A DNA stretch of 64,000 bases from an uncultured Desulfatitalea sp. (GTDB taxonomy: Bacteria > Desulfobacterota > Desulfobacteria > Desulfobacterales > Desulfosarcinaceae). The stretch is from assembly GCA_937868765.1 (NCBI GenBank), contig CALMNL010000004.1, positions 1,314,749-1,378,748 on the forward strand, in the 5' to 3' direction. Of the stretch, positions 38,596-45,253 are shown one piece after another. Positions within the stretch are counted from its first letter, which is position 1; each line of letters starts with the position of its first letter. The translations under genes and the position numbers were made by a program. Under the pieces are notes generated by a model. The model had not been told where the DNA came from. It did not search any database and saw nothing but the letters and a program-made list of their open reading frames with translations.

Positions 38596-41500
38596 ATGGC
38601 ATCCAAACAAACGTCCGAGACGAAGAAGAGTGTGGTGGGCTCCGTCATGGTGGTCGGTGGCGGCATCGCCGGTATTCAGGCCTCCTTGGATCTGGCCGAT
38701 TCCGGCTACCTGGTCAAGATGGTGGAAAGCAAAAGCGCCATCGGCGGGGTCATGGCCCAGCTGGACAAGACCTTTCCCACCAACGACTGCTCCATGTGCG
38801 TCATCTCGCCCAAGCTGGTCGAAGCGGGCCGGCATCTGAACATCGATCTGTTCACGACCAGCGAGGTGGAAAAGGTCGAAGGCGAGGCCGGCAATTTCAA
38901 GGTCACCCTGCTGCAGCGGCCGCGTTATGTCGAGCTGGACAAGTGCACGGCCTGCGGCGAATGCGCCAAGGTCTGTCCCATCAACGTACCCAACAACTTC
39001 GACGAAGGCTTGCGCGAACGCAAGGCCGCCTTCAAGCTCTATCCCCAGGGCATGCCCAGCGCTTACGCCATCGAGAAGCGCGGCACCGCACCCTGCAAGG
39101 CCACCTGCCCGGCGCACGTGAGCATCCAGGGCTACATCGCCTTGATCAACGACGGCCGCTACAAGGAGGCCTTGAAACTGTTCAAGCAGGAGCATCCCTT
39201 CCCCGGCGTGTGCGGCCGCGTGTGCCACCACCCCTGCGAAGGCCAGTGCACGCGCAACGATGTGGACAAGCCCCTGGCCATCCGCGAGCTGCATCGTTTT
39301 CTGGCCGACTACGAGCGCCGGAGCGGCGAGACCTACGTACCGGAAATCAAGGAAGCCAAACGGGATGAAAAGATCGCGGTCATCGGCTCCGGTCCGGCCG
39401 GCCTGACCGCGGCCTATTATCTGGCCCAGAAGGGATATAGCGTTACCATCTTCGAAAAACTGCCCGAACCCGGCGGCATGATGCGCGTGGGCATTCCCGA
39501 ATACCGCCTGCCACGGGACATCCTGGCCATGGAGATCGACACGGTGCGCAAGCTGGGCGTGGAGATCCGCTGCAACGTGGCCTTCGGCAAGGATGTCACC
39601 CTGGAAAGCCTCAAAAAGGATGGCTATAAAGCCTGCTTCATGGCCATCGGCCTGCACGGCGGCCGCCGGCTGGGGGTCGAGAACGAGGATGCCGACGGCG
39701 TGCTGCAGGGCGTGGATTTTCTGCGGGATGCGGCCATGGGCAAAGAGGTCCAGATCGGTGAAGAGGTGATCGTGGTGGGCGGCGGCAACGTGGCCATCGA
39801 CGTGGCCCTCACCGCCAAGCGCAAGGGGGCCAAGAAGGTCACCCTGATCTGCCTGGAAAAGCGCGAGGAGATGCCCGCCTGGCAGCACGAAATCGAGGAG
39901 GCCCTGGAAAGCGATATTCAGATCGTGAACAGCTTCGGTCCCAAGAGCTTCTTCATCGACAAGAATAAAAAGGTATCGGGCATCGAGTTCAAGACCTGCA
40001 CGGCGGTCTTCGACGAGAACAAACGTTTCAACCCCAAGTACGACGATAACGCCTGCCAGCCCTTTTTCGGCGACACCGTGATCATCGCCATCGGCCAGAG
40101 CACCGATCTATCCGGCCTCAAGGAGCAGAACATCGCCATCTCCCGGCCGGGCGGCTTGCAGGCCGATCCCGTGACCCTGCAGACCCCCATCGAGTGGGTC
40201 TTTGCCGGCGGCGACGCCTTCTACGGCCCCAAGTCGGTGGTCGACGCCGTGTCCTGCGGCAAGGAGGCGGCCGAGAGCATCCACCGCTTCGTCAACGGCC
40301 TGGACCTCAAGGAAGGCCGGGAGAAGACGTGGGAGTTCGTGAAGCCCGAGACCGCCCGGGAACCGAAGAAGGATCGCGTCAAGGTGCGCTGCCTGGACCC
40401 CGCGGCCCGGGAGTGCAACTTTTTGGAAGTCTCGTTCGGCTACGACGAAGAAGAGGCCAAGCGCGAGGCCGAACGCTGCCTCAAGTGCGGCATCTGCTCA
40501 GAGTGCTACCAGTGCGTCGAGGCCTGCCTGGCCAAGGCGGTCAACCACAACCAGCAGCCCACGCGCACGGTGGTGGAGGTCGGCTCGATCATCCTGGCGC
40601 CGGGCTTCTCGCCCTACGACCCGAGCAAGCACGAGTACTACGCCTACGCCAACCATCCCAATGTGGTGACGGCCCTGGAGTTCGAGCGCGTCCTCTCGGC
40701 CTCGGGCCCCTACCAGGGCCACCTGATCCGGCCGTCGGACCACAAGGAACCGAAGAAGATCGCCTGGCTGCAGTGCATCGGTTCGCGCGACATCAACAAG
40801 TGCGACCACAGCTACTGCTCGGCGGTATGCTGCATGTACGCCGCCAAGCAGACGGTCATCGCCAAGGAGCACAGCAAGAGCGGCCTCGACACGGCCGTCT
40901 TCTTCATGGACATGCGCACCTACGGTAAGGAGTTCGAGCGCTACTACATGCGCTGCGAAAAGGAGAAGGGCGTGCGCTTCGTGCGTTCGCGGGTGCATAC
41001 CATTGATCCCCTGGAGGGCGGTGATCTGCGCCTGCGCTATGCCAACGAAGAGGGCGAGCTGGTCGAAGAGATCTTCGACATGGTCGTTCTATCGGTGGGC
41101 CTGGCGCCCAACGATGCGGCCGTGCGCCTGGCCAACACCATGGGCGTGGAACTCAACAGCCACAAGTTCGCCAAGACCCGGGACCTGGCACCGGTGGCCA
41201 CCAACCGCGACGGCATCTACGTCTGCGGCGTCTTCCAGGGACCGAAGGACATTCCCCAATCGGTCATGGAGGCTTCGGCCGCCGCCGCCTCGGCTACCAA
41301 GAATCTGGCCGAAGCCCGCGGGACCCTGATCCGCACCAAGCAGCTGCCGCCCGAGCTCGATGTCTCCGGCGAGGCCCCCCGGGTGGGCGTCTTCGTCTGC
41401 AACTGCGGCATCAACATCGGCGGCGTGGCCGACGTGCCGGCCGTGCGTGAGTACGCCCGGACCCTGCCCCATGTGGTGCACGTGGAAGACAATCTCTTCA

Positions 41501-43059
41501 CCTGCTCCCAGGACACCCAGGACAAGATGAAAGTGGTGATCAAGGAGAAAGGCATCAACCGGGTGGTGGTGGCCTCCTGTTCGCCGCGGACTCACGAGCC
41601 GCTCTTCCAGGAGACGATCCGCGAGGCCGGCCTGAACAAGTATCTCTTCGAGATGGCCAACATCCGCGACCAGAACACCTGGGTGCACATGAACAACCCG
41701 GAAAAGGCCACCGAAAAGGCCAAGGACCTGGTGCGCATGGCCGTGGCCAAGGCGGCCTACATCGAACCGCTGCATCAGGTGAGCCTGGAAGTAAAACACG
41801 CGGGCCTGGTGGTGGGCGGCGGCGTGGCCGGCATGGAAGCGGCCCTGGGGCTGGCCGACCAGGGGTTCCAGACCTACCTGGTGGAACGTTCGAGCCATCT
41901 GGGCGGCAATGCCCTCTGGCTGCGGGCCACCTGGCAGGGGGAGAAGATCCAGCCCTACGTGGAAGCGCTCGTCGAGCGGGTGAGCAATCACCCGAAGATC
42001 AAACTCTACCTGGACGCGGAAGTGATCGAGACCTCCGGCATCCTGGGCAACTTCACTTCGACCATCGCCATCGGCGGCACCACCATGACCACGGTGTCCA
42101 TCGAGCACGGCGCCACGGTGCTGGCCACCGGCGGCAAGGAGTATGTGCCCACGGAATACGAGTACGGCCGGCATCCCAATATCCTGACTCACAAGCAGAT
42201 GGACGAGGCCATGACCGGTGGCGATCCGCGCATCGCGGCCGCCGACACGGCCGTCTTCATCCAGTGCGTGGGCTCGCGCATCCCCGAGCGGCCGTCGTGC
42301 AGCCGCGTCTGCTGCACCCACAGCGTCAAGACGGCCATCGCCCTCAAAGAGCAGAAACCAGAGATGAACATCTTCATTCTCTACCGCGACGTCCGCACCT
42401 ACGGTTTCCGCGAAGATCTCTACCGCAAGGCCCGCGAAAAGGGGGTGATCTTCATCCGTTTCGATCTTACGGCCCCGCCCCAGGTGGTGCAGAACAATGG
42501 CGAACTCAGCGTCACGGTCAAGGATCACATCCTGGGCCGGCCCATCGAGCTGAACCCGGACCTGCTGGTGCTGGCCACGGCGATTCTGCCCAACGAAAAC
42601 AAGGATCTCTTCGAGCTGTTCAAGGTGCCCATCAACGCTGAAGGCTTCCTGGTAGAGGCCCACGCCAAGCTGCGGCCGGTGGACTTCGCCTCCGAAGGCA
42701 TCTTCATGGCCGGCCTGGCGCACTACCCCAAATCCATCGACGAGACCATCGCCCAGGCCCAGGCCTCGGTTTCCCGGGCCGCCACCATTCTGAGCAAGGA
42801 CGCCATCTGGGTGGGCGGCGTCACGGCCATTGTCGAACCGGACCGGTGTGCGGTATGCTGCACCTGCGTGCGCACCTGCCCCTACCATGTGCCCTACATC
42901 GGCAGCGAAGGCCACGCGGTCATCGACCCGGCCGGCTGTCACGGGTGCGGCTGCTGCGTGGCCGAATGCCCGGGCAAGGCCATCACCCTGAAGCATTTCA
43001 CCGATCAGCAGTTGATCGCCAAGACAGCGGCGCTCTTCGCCGAATGCGTGGCGCGGTAA
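38596..43059 (+). CDS. Triple-fusion HdrA / NfnB-GltD-like / HdrA flavin-iron-sulfur oxidoreductase
   Basis: 1487 residues. A first HdrA FAD domain (VMVVGGGIAGIQASLDLADS, ~18-110) leads to a 4Fe-4S motif CTACGECAKVCP (~117-128). Then an inserted GltD/NfnB-like unit (~160-575) has the N-terminal Fe-S cysteines at ~167-218, FAD site AVIGSGPAGLTAAYYLAQKG (~261) and NAD(P)H site VVGGGNVAIDVA (~393). A cluster CLKCGICSECYQCVEAC (~628) precedes the rest of the first HdrA. A second HdrA starts at ~928 (VGVFVCNCGINIGGVADVP) with FAD site VVGGGVAGMEAALGLADQG (~1071), and ends in two ferredoxin motifs, CAVCCTCVRTCP (~1417) and CHGCGCCVAECP (~1446). HdrA is the flavin-based bifurcating module; the insert suggests direct NAD(P)H use. 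First gene of the operon with MvhD, MetV and MetF. Confidence 0.9.
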   Translation: MASKQTSETKKSVVGSVMVVGGGIAGIQASLDLADSGYLVKMVESKSAIGGVMAQLDKTFPTNDCSMCVISPKLVEAGRHLNIDLFTTSEVEKVEGEAGNFKVTLLQRPRYVELDKCTACGECAKVCPINVPNNFDEGLRERKAAFKLYPQGMPSAYAIEKRGTAPCKATCPAHVSIQGYIALINDGRYKEALKLFKQEHPFPGVCGRVCHHPCEGQCTRNDVDKPLAIRELHRFLADYERRSGETYVPEIKEAKRDEKIAVIGSGPAGLTAAYYLAQKGYSVTIFEKLPEPGGMMRVGIPEYRLPRDILAMEIDTVRKLGVEIRCNVAFGKDVTLESLKKDGYKACFMAIGLHGGRRLGVENEDADGVLQGVDFLRDAAMGKEVQIGEEVIVVGGGNVAIDVALTAKRKGAKKVTLICLEKREEMPAWQHEIEEALESDIQIVNSFGPKSFFIDKNKKVSGIEFKTCTAVFDENKRFNPKYDDNACQPFFGDTVIIAIGQSTDLSGLKEQNIAISRPGGLQADPVTLQTPIEWVFAGGDAFYGPKSVVDAVSCGKEAAESIHRFVNGLDLKEGREKTWEFVKPETAREPKKDRVKVRCLDPAARECNFLEVSFGYDEEEAKREAERCLKCGICSECYQCVEACLAKAVNHNQQPTRTVVEVGSIILAPGFSPYDPSKHEYYAYANHPNVVTALEFERVLSASGPYQGHLIRPSDHKEPKKIAWLQCIGSRDINKCDHSYCSAVCCMYAAKQTVIAKEHSKSGLDTAVFFMDMRTYGKEFERYYMRCEKEKGVRFVRSRVHTIDPLEGGDLRLRYANEEGELVEEIFDMVVLSVGLAPNDAAVRLANTMGVELNSHKFAKTRDLAPVATNRDGIYVCGVFQGPKDIPQSVMEASAAAASATKNLAEARGTLIRTKQLPPELDVSGEAPRVGVFVCNCGINIGGVADVPAVREYARTLPHVVHVEDNLFTCSQDTQDKMKVVIKEKGINRVVVASCSPRTHEPLFQETIREAGLNKYLFEMANIRDQNTWVHMNNPEKATEKAKDLVRMAVAKAAYIEPLHQVSLEVKHAGLVVGGGVAGMEAALGLADQGFQTYLVERSSHLGGNALWLRATWQGEKIQPYVEALVERVSNHPKIKLYLDAEVIETSGILGNFTSTIAIGGTTMTTVSIEHGATVLATGGKEYVPTEYEYGRHPNILTHKQMDEAMTGGDPRIAAADTAVFIQCVGSRIPERPSCSRVCCTHSVKTAIALKEQKPEMNIFILYRDVRTYGFREDLYRKAREKGVIFIRFDLTAPPQVVQNNGELSVTVKDHILGRPIELNPDLLVLATAILPNENKDLFELFKVPINAEGFLVEAHAKLRPVDFASEGIFMAGLAHYPKSIDETIAQAQASVSRAATILSKDAIWVGGVTAIVEPDRCAVCCTCVRTCPYHVPYIGSEGHAVIDPAGCHGCGCCVAECPGKAITLKHFTDQQLIAKTAALFAECVAR

Positions 43060-43109
43060 TGTATGTGGATCATCACAAACCCGAGACTCACTAAAGGAGA
43101 GGAAAAGCC

Positions 43110-43529
43110 ATGAGCGCGACCTACGAACCCCAGATCGTCGCCTTCTGCTGCAAGTACTGCGCTTACGCGGCCGGCGACCTGGCCGGCTCCATGCGGCTGA
43201 ACTACCCGTCCAACGTGAAGGTGGTCCAGGTGCCCTGCACCGGCCGTGTGGACATTCTGCACCTGCTGCGCGCCATCGAGGAGGGCGCCGATGCCGTCTA
43301 TGTGGCGGGGTGACTGGAGGGTGAATGCCATTTCCTGGAAGGAAATCTCAAAACCCGTCGTAAAGTCGAATACGTGAAACGCGCTTTAAAAGAGATGCAA
43401 ATGGAAGAAGGGCGTGTGGAGATGTTCAATCTCTCGTCGGCCCAGGGACCGCGCTTTGCCGAGATCGCCACGGAGATGACCGAACGGGCGAAGCAAATGG
43501 GGCCCAGCCCGCTGAACCCCTGTAACTAG
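43110..43529 (+). CDS. mvhD: MvhD-like electron-transfer subunit, selenoprotein (in-frame UGA = Sec)
   Basis: 139 residues if the TGA at 43311-43313 (codon 68) is read as selenocysteine. Upstream: MSATYEPQIVAFCCKYCAYA, then VKVVQVPCTGRVDILHLLRA and DAVYVAG. Downstream in the same frame: LEGECHFLEGNLKTRRKVEY, VEMFNLSSAQGPRFAEIATE, ending TAG at 43527. Cys-containing MvhD proteins have VAGC-LEGxCHFxEGN, so UGA stands exactly where a 2Fe-2S-ligand Cys is expected. MvhD passes electrons between HdrA and a partner. The ATG has AGGAGAGG upstream and lies 50 bp after hdrA. Conventional gene calling would truncate it at 67 residues. Confidence 0.92.
43311..43349 (+). promoter_or_regulatory. Candidate bacterial SECIS element
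   Basis: Sixteen bases after the UGA codon a 6-bp stem ATTTCC (43330-43335)/GGAAAT (43341-43346) closes a TGGAA loop with exposed G and U. GAG (43317-43319) can pair with CTC (43347-43349) to extend it across an internal loop. Distance and G/U loop fit SelB-binding bSECIS hairpins. Confidence 0.65.
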
Positions 43530-43646
43530 TAAGGTGAGGGCTGGTTTCAGGCGAAGACTCGGGTCGAAGGCGGCCGGTAGCGGTCGCCCGCCAGTCATGA
43601 CGGATAATGTCTGCTGTTGACGGATTAAACCATATCGAGGTGAACC

Positions 43647-44315
43647 ATGATTATAGCGGATCGAAAACCCCTGGGCGAGATTCTGGAGATGATCAAGCCC
43701 TATGACAACATTGCACTGGTCGGCTGCAAGGGGTGCGTGACGGTGTGCAATGTGGGCGGCCTGAAAGAGGTGGAGATTCTGGCCTCCACCCTGCGGATCG
43801 CCCGCAAGAAGGAAGGGCGTCCCCTGAAGGTGGACGAACGGATGCTCGAGCGCCAGTGCGACCCGGAATACATCGAGCAGCTGCGCGATGTCCATGACCA
43901 GTATGATGCGGTCCTGTCCATGGCCTGCGGCGTGGGACCCCAGTTTCTCTCCGAAGCCTATCCCCTGCAGCGCTTCTTCCCCACGGTGAACACGCGCTTC
44001 ATGGGCGGCGCCGTTACGCACGGCATCTGGGAAGAGCGTTGTGCGGGCTGCGGTACCTGCATCATCCATTACTTCGACGGCCTGTGTCCCATCGCGCGCT
44101 GTTCCAAGAGTTTGCAGCACGGTCCCTGCGGCGGCAGCAGCCACGGCAAGTGCGAGGTCTCCAAGGATATCGTCTGCATCTGGGACCTGATCGTGCGCAA
44201 GAAGATGGAGCAGGGCCGCCTGGAGGACCTGCGCAATTACAGGGCTGCCAAGGATTGGCGCACGGCCCGGGACGGTGGACCCCGCAAGAGCATGAGAGAG
44301 GAGCTGGTGCGATGA
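43647..44315 (+). CDS. metV: MetV-like methylene-THF reductase C-terminal-domain (zinc/Fe-S) subunit
   Basis: 222 residues of the MTHFR_C/MetV family. N-terminal Cys motif VGCKGCVTVCNVGG; the C-terminal cluster region has ERCAGCGTCIIHYFDGLCPI, then ARCSKSLQHGPCGGS. In acetogens MetV partners MetF and links it to HdrA-type electron donors. The gene follows mvhD by 117 bp and overlaps metF by an ATGA junction, which ties MetV and MetF translation together. No membrane segment. Function inferred from family and context. Confidence 0.85.
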   Translation: MIIADRKPLGEILEMIKPYDNIALVGCKGCVTVCNVGGLKEVEILASTLRIARKKEGRPLKVDERMLERQCDPEYIEQLRDVHDQYDAVLSMACGVGPQFLSEAYPLQRFFPTVNTRFMGGAVTHGIWEERCAGCGTCIIHYFDGLCPIARCSKSLQHGPCGGSSHGKCEVSKDIVCIWDLIVRKKMEQGRLEDLRNYRAAKDWRTARDGGPRKSMREELVR

Positions 44316-45253
44316 GCGACAACGGTTATAAATCCGGAAGCAATCTGGAAAAGGTCCTGAGAGCCGGCCATTTCGCCTTTACCGGTGAGTGCGGGCCGCC
44401 CAAGGGCGCCAATGTGGAGCACTTGAAAGAGAAGATGAATCCGCTGCGGGGCGTGGTGGACGCCATCAACGTCACCGACAACCAGACCGCCGTGGTGCGC
44501 ATGTCCAGCAAAGCCGCCAGCGCCCTGATGGTGCAGGCCGGCCTGGAACCCAACTTTCAGATGGTGTGCCGCGACCGCAACCGCATCGCCATGCAGAGCG
44601 ACATCCTGGGCATCCATGCTTTGGGCATCCGCAACATGCTCTGCCTGTCGGGCGACCACCAGACCTTCGGCAACCACCCCGAAGCCAAGAATGTCTACGA
44701 TCTGGACAGCATGCAGCTCATCGCCCTGGTGAAGAAGATGCGCGACGAGGGCAAGTTCCTCAACGGCGAAGATATCGACGGACCGCCCAAACTCTTCATC
44801 GGTGCGGCCGCCAACCCCTTCGCCGAGCCCACCGAATTCCGCGTCTACCGCCTGGCCAACAAGATCGACGCGGGCGCCGACTTCATCCAGACCCAGTGCA
44901 TCTACAACATGCCGCGCTTCCGGGAGTTCATGAAGCGGGCCGTGGACATGGGGCTGACCGAAAAGTGCTACATCCTGGCCGGGGTGACCCCCTTCAAGAG
45001 CGCCGGTATGGCCAAGTACATGGCCAAATCGGTGCCGGGCATGGACGTGCCCGACGATGTGATCAAACGCATCGAGGGGGCCGGCAAGGGCAAGATGGCC
45101 GAAGAGGGTATCAAGTTCGCCATCGAGCAGATCCAGGAGTTCAAGGAGATGCCGGGCGTGGCCGGCGTCCACCTGATGGCCATCGAATGGGAGCACAAGG
45201 TGCCCGAGATCGCCGAGCGGGCCGGCGTGCTGCCCAGGCCCAAGGTAGACTAG
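44312..45253 (+). CDS. metF: Methylenetetrahydrofolate reductase
   Basis: 313 residues, TIM-barrel MetF. The start ATG overlaps the metV stop (ATGA). Key parts are FTGECGPPKGANVEHLKEKM with the active-site Glu, INVTDNQTAVVRMS, LCLSGDHQTFGNHPEAKNVYD and DFIQTQCIYNMPRF with the conserved Gln in TQ. It reduces methylene-THF to methyl-THF in the methyl branch of the Wood-Ljungdahl pathway, or makes methylene-THF in the oxidative direction. With the HdrA fusion, MvhD and MetV it predicts an electron-bifurcating or confurcating MetFV-HdrA-MvhD complex. Last gene of the sigma-54 operon. Confidence 0.93.
   Translation: MSDNGYKSGSNLEKVLRAGHFAFTGECGPPKGANVEHLKEKMNPLRGVVDAINVTDNQTAVVRMSSKAASALMVQAGLEPNFQMVCRDRNRIAMQSDILGIHALGIRNMLCLSGDHQTFGNHPEAKNVYDLDSMQLIALVKKMRDEGKFLNGEDIDGPPKLFIGAAANPFAEPTEFRVYRLANKIDAGADFIQTQCIYNMPRFREFMKRAVDMGLTEKCYILAGVTPFKSAGMAKYMAKSVPGMDVPDDVIKRIEGAGKGKMAEEGIKFAIEQIQEFKEMPGVAGVHLMAIEWEHKVPEIAERAGVLPRPKVD

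Follow-up and report, generated by a model that had tools for sequence, protein, structure and literature searches.

The window analyzed here, a 64,000-nucleotide stretch of a contig from an uncultured Desulfatitalea sp., holds a gene for an MvhD-like protein that is interrupted by a TGA codon. The question it raises is whether this codon terminates the protein or is translated as selenocysteine (Sec). The first-pass annotation had interpreted it as Sec, and this interpretation is supported by our comparisons of related sequences, based on which the premature-looking stop is almost certainly a Sec codon.

Codon 68 of mvhD and the hairpin that follows it

Between its ATG and TAG the mvhD frame (Table 1) has a sole internal stop, the TGA at codon 68. 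Under the standard code the product ends at residue 67, and the gene is missing from a list of open reading frames of at least 80 residues, so that the operon can appear to be without its electron-transfer link. The same annotation loss applies to the other 44 distinct copies that we found to have TGA at codon 68 (TGA-68 copies), and the Sec codon is an ordinary, easily mis-annotated feature of sulfate-reducing bacteria.

Table 1. Features of the mvhD locus (window coordinates).
Feature	Coordinates	Strand	Remarks
hdrA with GltD-like NAD(P)-binding module	38596..43059	+	1487 residues; upstream partner of mvhD
Ribosome-binding-site-like stretch AAGGAGAGG	43094..43102	+	Before the mvhD ATG; read from the letters
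mvhD	43110..43529	+	139 residues, Sec (almost certainly) at codon 68; stop TAG 43527-43529
In-frame TGA, probable Sec-68 codon	43311..43313	+	Replaces conserved Cys; TGA/TGC/TGT 40/28/12 in best 80 of 96 relatives
Predicted bacterial SECIS hairpin ATTTCCT-GGA-AGGAAAT	43330..43346	+	Located in codons 74-79; distance from TGA to apical loop 23 nt
metV-like gene (PF12225)	43647..44315	+	Ordinary TGA stop overlaps metF start
metF, methylene-tetrahydrofolate reductase (PF02219)	44312..45253	+	Downstream of metV

As the first-pass annotation had claimed, the TGA stands in place of a conserved MvhD cysteine and the frame remains open past it to the TAG, with a full-length match to the FlpD profile PF02662 (156.6 bits, cut-off 22.3, E 3.8e-46, profile positions 1-123 of 123). 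The score against the NCBI VhuD model was 149.7, which is under the cut-off of 215 for that model. By similarity, the protein matches the fold of solved MvhD. Six cysteines (C13, C14, C17, C43, C68, and C73) were invariant among 19 chosen MvhD rows when TGA was read as Cys, and C13 is absent from two MvhD paralogs of the same genome, L004 and L006.

If the TGA were a true stop, as the interruption of the frame under the standard code would suggest, mvhD would be a pseudogene or would encode a 67-residue protein. Against this, the median dN/dS relative to the window copy was 0.070 in the part preceding the TGA (codons 1-67) and 0.109 in the part beyond it (codons 80-136) (medians from the 20 of 30 comparisons in which both ratios were computable). 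Purifying selection thus acts on both sides of the TGA, and the downstream part is less constrained and clearly protein-coding. The closest relatives of the gene are labeled Desulfatitalea and other Desulfobacterales, and an alignment with Cys- and Sec-type MvhD, as the first-pass annotation had proposed, gave TGA at the homologous codon in 40 and a Cys codon in the other 40 of the best 80 of 96 loci from named genomes, with no other codon in any of the 80. Together with the frozen hairpin of the TGA-68 copies (see below), these data make a true stop very unlikely.

A sequencing or assembly error might have produced the TGA of the window from TGC or TGT. We consider such an error exceedingly improbable, based on the fact that the 40 loci with TGA include two complete Desulfosarcina chromosomes (L045, L051) and that TGA goes with a hairpin which is not complete in 64 of 67 Cys copies. 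Cultured relatives with the TGA include Desulfatitalea alkaliphila (L038) and Desulfosarcina widdelii (L051).

A related pattern is seen in a solved relative, probably a methanogen VhuD. Like the window MvhD, the delta-subunit chain of PDB 9sfi (9sfi_K) has a non-standard residue, X, aligned at the column of U68; unlike it, 9sfi_K has another X where the window protein has C17. Both are likely Sec, as excerpts of a review list the family with the motif CxxU and two Sec and note several Sec in some archaeal members (PMC13188914).

The first-pass annotation placed the start of the hairpin 16 nt after the UGA, and it does begin there, at the coordinates given in Table 1. Bacterial SECIS elements are described, in the excerpts of the same review, as having G in the first two loop positions and a loop 16-37 nt after the UGA, and as being unlike archaeal ones (PMC13188914); the window hairpin has the loop GGA at a distance within this range. 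Its folding energy did not set it apart from shuffled sequences in any of four cuts (z of +0.30, -0.62, -0.20, and +0.23), and we rejected energy as proof of a SECIS. Similarly, searches against Rfam gave no SECIS match in a 151-base segment surrounding the TGA, where there was one irrelevant match (E 3.4), or in the whole window, where two tRNAs alone reached threshold.

To compare the hairpin among relatives we assembled 116 distinct copies: 45 TGA-68 copies (the window gene, three paralogs from its own genome, and 41 others), four copies with TGA at codon 17 (TGA-17 copies), and 67 Cys copies, all of which were checked for TGC or TGT at codon 68. All seven pairs are kept in 45/45 TGA-68, 0/4 TGA-17, and 3/67 Cys copies, the last three having loops of CAA, GAA, and TGA, not GGA; since the copies are related these counts are of non-independent events, and the other codons of the same copies vary freely. 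Where the encoded peptide is the same, H[FY]LEGN, the full hairpin is present in 44/44 TGA-68 vs. 1/16 Cys copies. The TGA-68 copies differ synonymously in codons 74-79 at 170 of 5770 same-residue codon pairs (2.9%), which is the lowest value for any six-codon window, while the corresponding values are 40352 of 77080 (52%) for codons 1-67 and 80-136 of these copies and 4681 of 9024 (52%) for codons 74-79 of the Cys copies. In the three own-genome paralogs one stem pair is altered on both sides, from TTC/GGA to TAC/GGT. By its position, loop, and conservation the hairpin is a predicted bacterial SECIS, a call for which the comparative evidence is decisive and the energy unremarkable. The frozen hairpin also provides a clean signature for the re-annotation of TGA-68 copies.

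Selenocysteine machinery and other TGA-containing genes

All four of the genes that the first-pass annotation had required for its reading are present in the genome, which comprises 5.36 Mb in 18 contigs and has a listed completeness of 100%. Those for selB (360.6 bits), selA (614.5 bits), and selD (386.1 bits) exceeded curated cut-offs and the tRNA-Sec gene, selC, scored 72.4 bits against a gathering threshold of 47.

Several other genes hold an in-frame TGA. Among the genome's 12 MvhD-like matches, a single TGA is found in four, namely the window gene and its paralogs L004, L006, and L007, all of which have it at codon 68. One TGA is also present in 3/14 molybdopterin oxidoreductase matches and in 6/33 HdrA-like matches, although some of the latter are pieces of one gene. 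These families appear as selenoprotein families in the excerpts of the review cited above (PMC13188914). The TGA-bearing HdrA-like matches include C7:440390-440863 and C3:222991-223446; the HdrA of the window has no TGA. The selD gene (L018, G000:C6:34195-35121) has an in-frame TGA of its own and is likely to encode a selenoprotein itself.

The presence of in-frame TGA in several genes could also be expected if TGA were reassigned throughout the genome, for instance to Trp, or were read through without Sec. However, metV ends in TGA, which is therefore still a stop in this operon, codon 68 alternates with no other than Cys codons in the best 80 of 96 relatives, and the Sec machinery is present. 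Reassignment or readthrough is, consequently, scarcely credible, and decoding as Sec is the reading that we retain.

The distribution of selB across the order was uninformative for sorting TGA copies. This gene was found in 164 of 194 genomes, and by hand tally among the matches listed it was not found at E <= 1e-60 in 12 of ~86 genomes with TGA copies, so that it cannot separate TGA from Cys copies. We re-tested those 12 genomes along with five more of the 30 without selB. A TGA-bearing MvhD-like match is present in all 17, and selA in 15; the other two genomes are 65% and 82% complete.

Operon context and proposed function

The gene order of the locus is hdrA-mvhD-metV-metF. Among rows with an alignment score of 400 or more, duplicates kept, HdrA precedes mvhD in 47/48 TGA-68 rows, the remaining row having 165 bases of flank, and metV follows mvhD in 45/48 TGA-68 rows vs. 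29/50 Cys rows. The gap between mvhD and metV (43530-43646, 117 bases) is the longest in the operon.

Clustering of metVF with hdrA and mvhD is a trait of the Type IV (Hdr-type) methylene-THF reductase, which literature excerpts describe for Moorella and Sporomusa. For Moorella, these excerpts propose an HdrCBA-MvhD-MetVF complex whose HdrA is similar in size to that of the window, and for Sporomusa ovata they report that HdrB, HdrA, and MetF are recovered in pull-downs with tagged MvhD. Unlike the HdrCBA-MvhD-MetVF systems, the window (C4:1314749-1378748) has no match to the CCG domain of HdrB-type proteins, as none of the 34 matches to this domain in the genome falls within it. According to the excerpts of PMC6019823, methanogen MvhD delivers electrons to HdrA via a [2Fe-2S] cluster.

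We consider it highly probable that the window gene encodes a Sec-containing MvhD, decoded through SelB, that would relay electrons between HdrA-GltD and MetVF. SelB with Sec-tRNA-Sec would bind the hairpin and decode UGA-68 as Sec, as the machinery and the conserved hairpin suggest. The product would be a small electron-transfer subunit, with its fold assigned by similarity and a putative [2Fe-2S] cluster expected from its relatives. Electrons would pass via MvhD between the upstream HdrA-GltD flavoprotein and the downstream MetVF methylene-THF reductase, a role as link that we infer from the conserved gene order and from studies of Moorella and Sporomusa. The conserved cysteines surrounding the cluster probably have Sec-68 in their midst, where it would tune the redox behavior of the cluster; this is the least certain step.

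The Sec reading is not new. Sec-containing MvhD/FrhD proteins of Deltaproteobacteria have been in print since 2006 (PMC1794560), and the earlier statement that such proteins are known in this group is borne out by the excerpts of three papers (PMC1794560, PMC2702500, PMC5109826). The window gene therefore belongs to a known selenoprotein family, of which it is a well-supported, ordinary member. Its counterparts in Syntrophobacter fumaroxidans, Desulfobacterium autotrophicum HRM2 (mvhD1, 2, 3, and 5), and Desulfococcus multivorans are of the same family and broad group, have UGA-encoded Sec, and, as in the window, are often beside hdrA (PMC1794560, PMC2702500, PMC5109826). The passages on those copies give neither the Sec position nor metV-metF neighbors of the Sec copy. 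In the excerpts of PMC1794560, FrhD and HdrA are each listed with one Sec member for Moorella, and a table gives three Sec/Cys conversions each way in FrhD.

A second TGA site at codon 17

In four MvhD copies (L096, L099, L124, and L125) the TGA is found at codon 17, and codon 68 encodes Cys. All four lie between HdrA and MetV and share the hdrA-mvhD-metV-metF gene order. Downstream of codon 17, each of them carries a hairpin with 6/6 pairs; the same site is fully paired in 2/45 TGA-68 and 3/67 Cys copies. The copies examined in the hdrA-mvhD-metV-metF order comprise 45 with Sec-68 and four with Sec-17, as predicted from their TGA codons, and none with both; similarly, TGA at both codons was not found in any of the 133 MvhD hits examined for both. 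The proposal that bacterial MvhD never has Sec at both sites was nevertheless rejected because both codon 17 and codon 68 are TGA in L153 (G037:C259:13000-14100), a paralog from a different genome within the order.

We tentatively suggest, as a possibility that we consider somewhat less probable than its alternatives, that bacterial MvhD may have Sec at 17, at 68, or at both, each with a hairpin of the same plan, and that the two sites might serve as alternatives for positioning a single selenium close to the iron-sulfur cluster in the electron-transfer chain of the methylene-THF reductase, with a Sec/Cys state that is switchable among sulfate reducers. No description of the 17/68 alternation in bacterial MvhD was found in the literature searched, which covered few subscription journals. 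This two-site pattern is the part of our analysis that is worth specialist attention, and the copies, which differ in whether position 17, position 68, both, or neither would be Sec, are natural comparisons for the role of selenium in an electron-transfer protein. A tree of 102 rows, which has few columns and many open forks, gave 10 changes among the three states. L153, which is outside the 45 counted TGA-68 copies, has 6/7 pairs of the codon-68 hairpin as read from its letters, and its double TGA is the pattern seen as X/X in PDB 9sfi_K.
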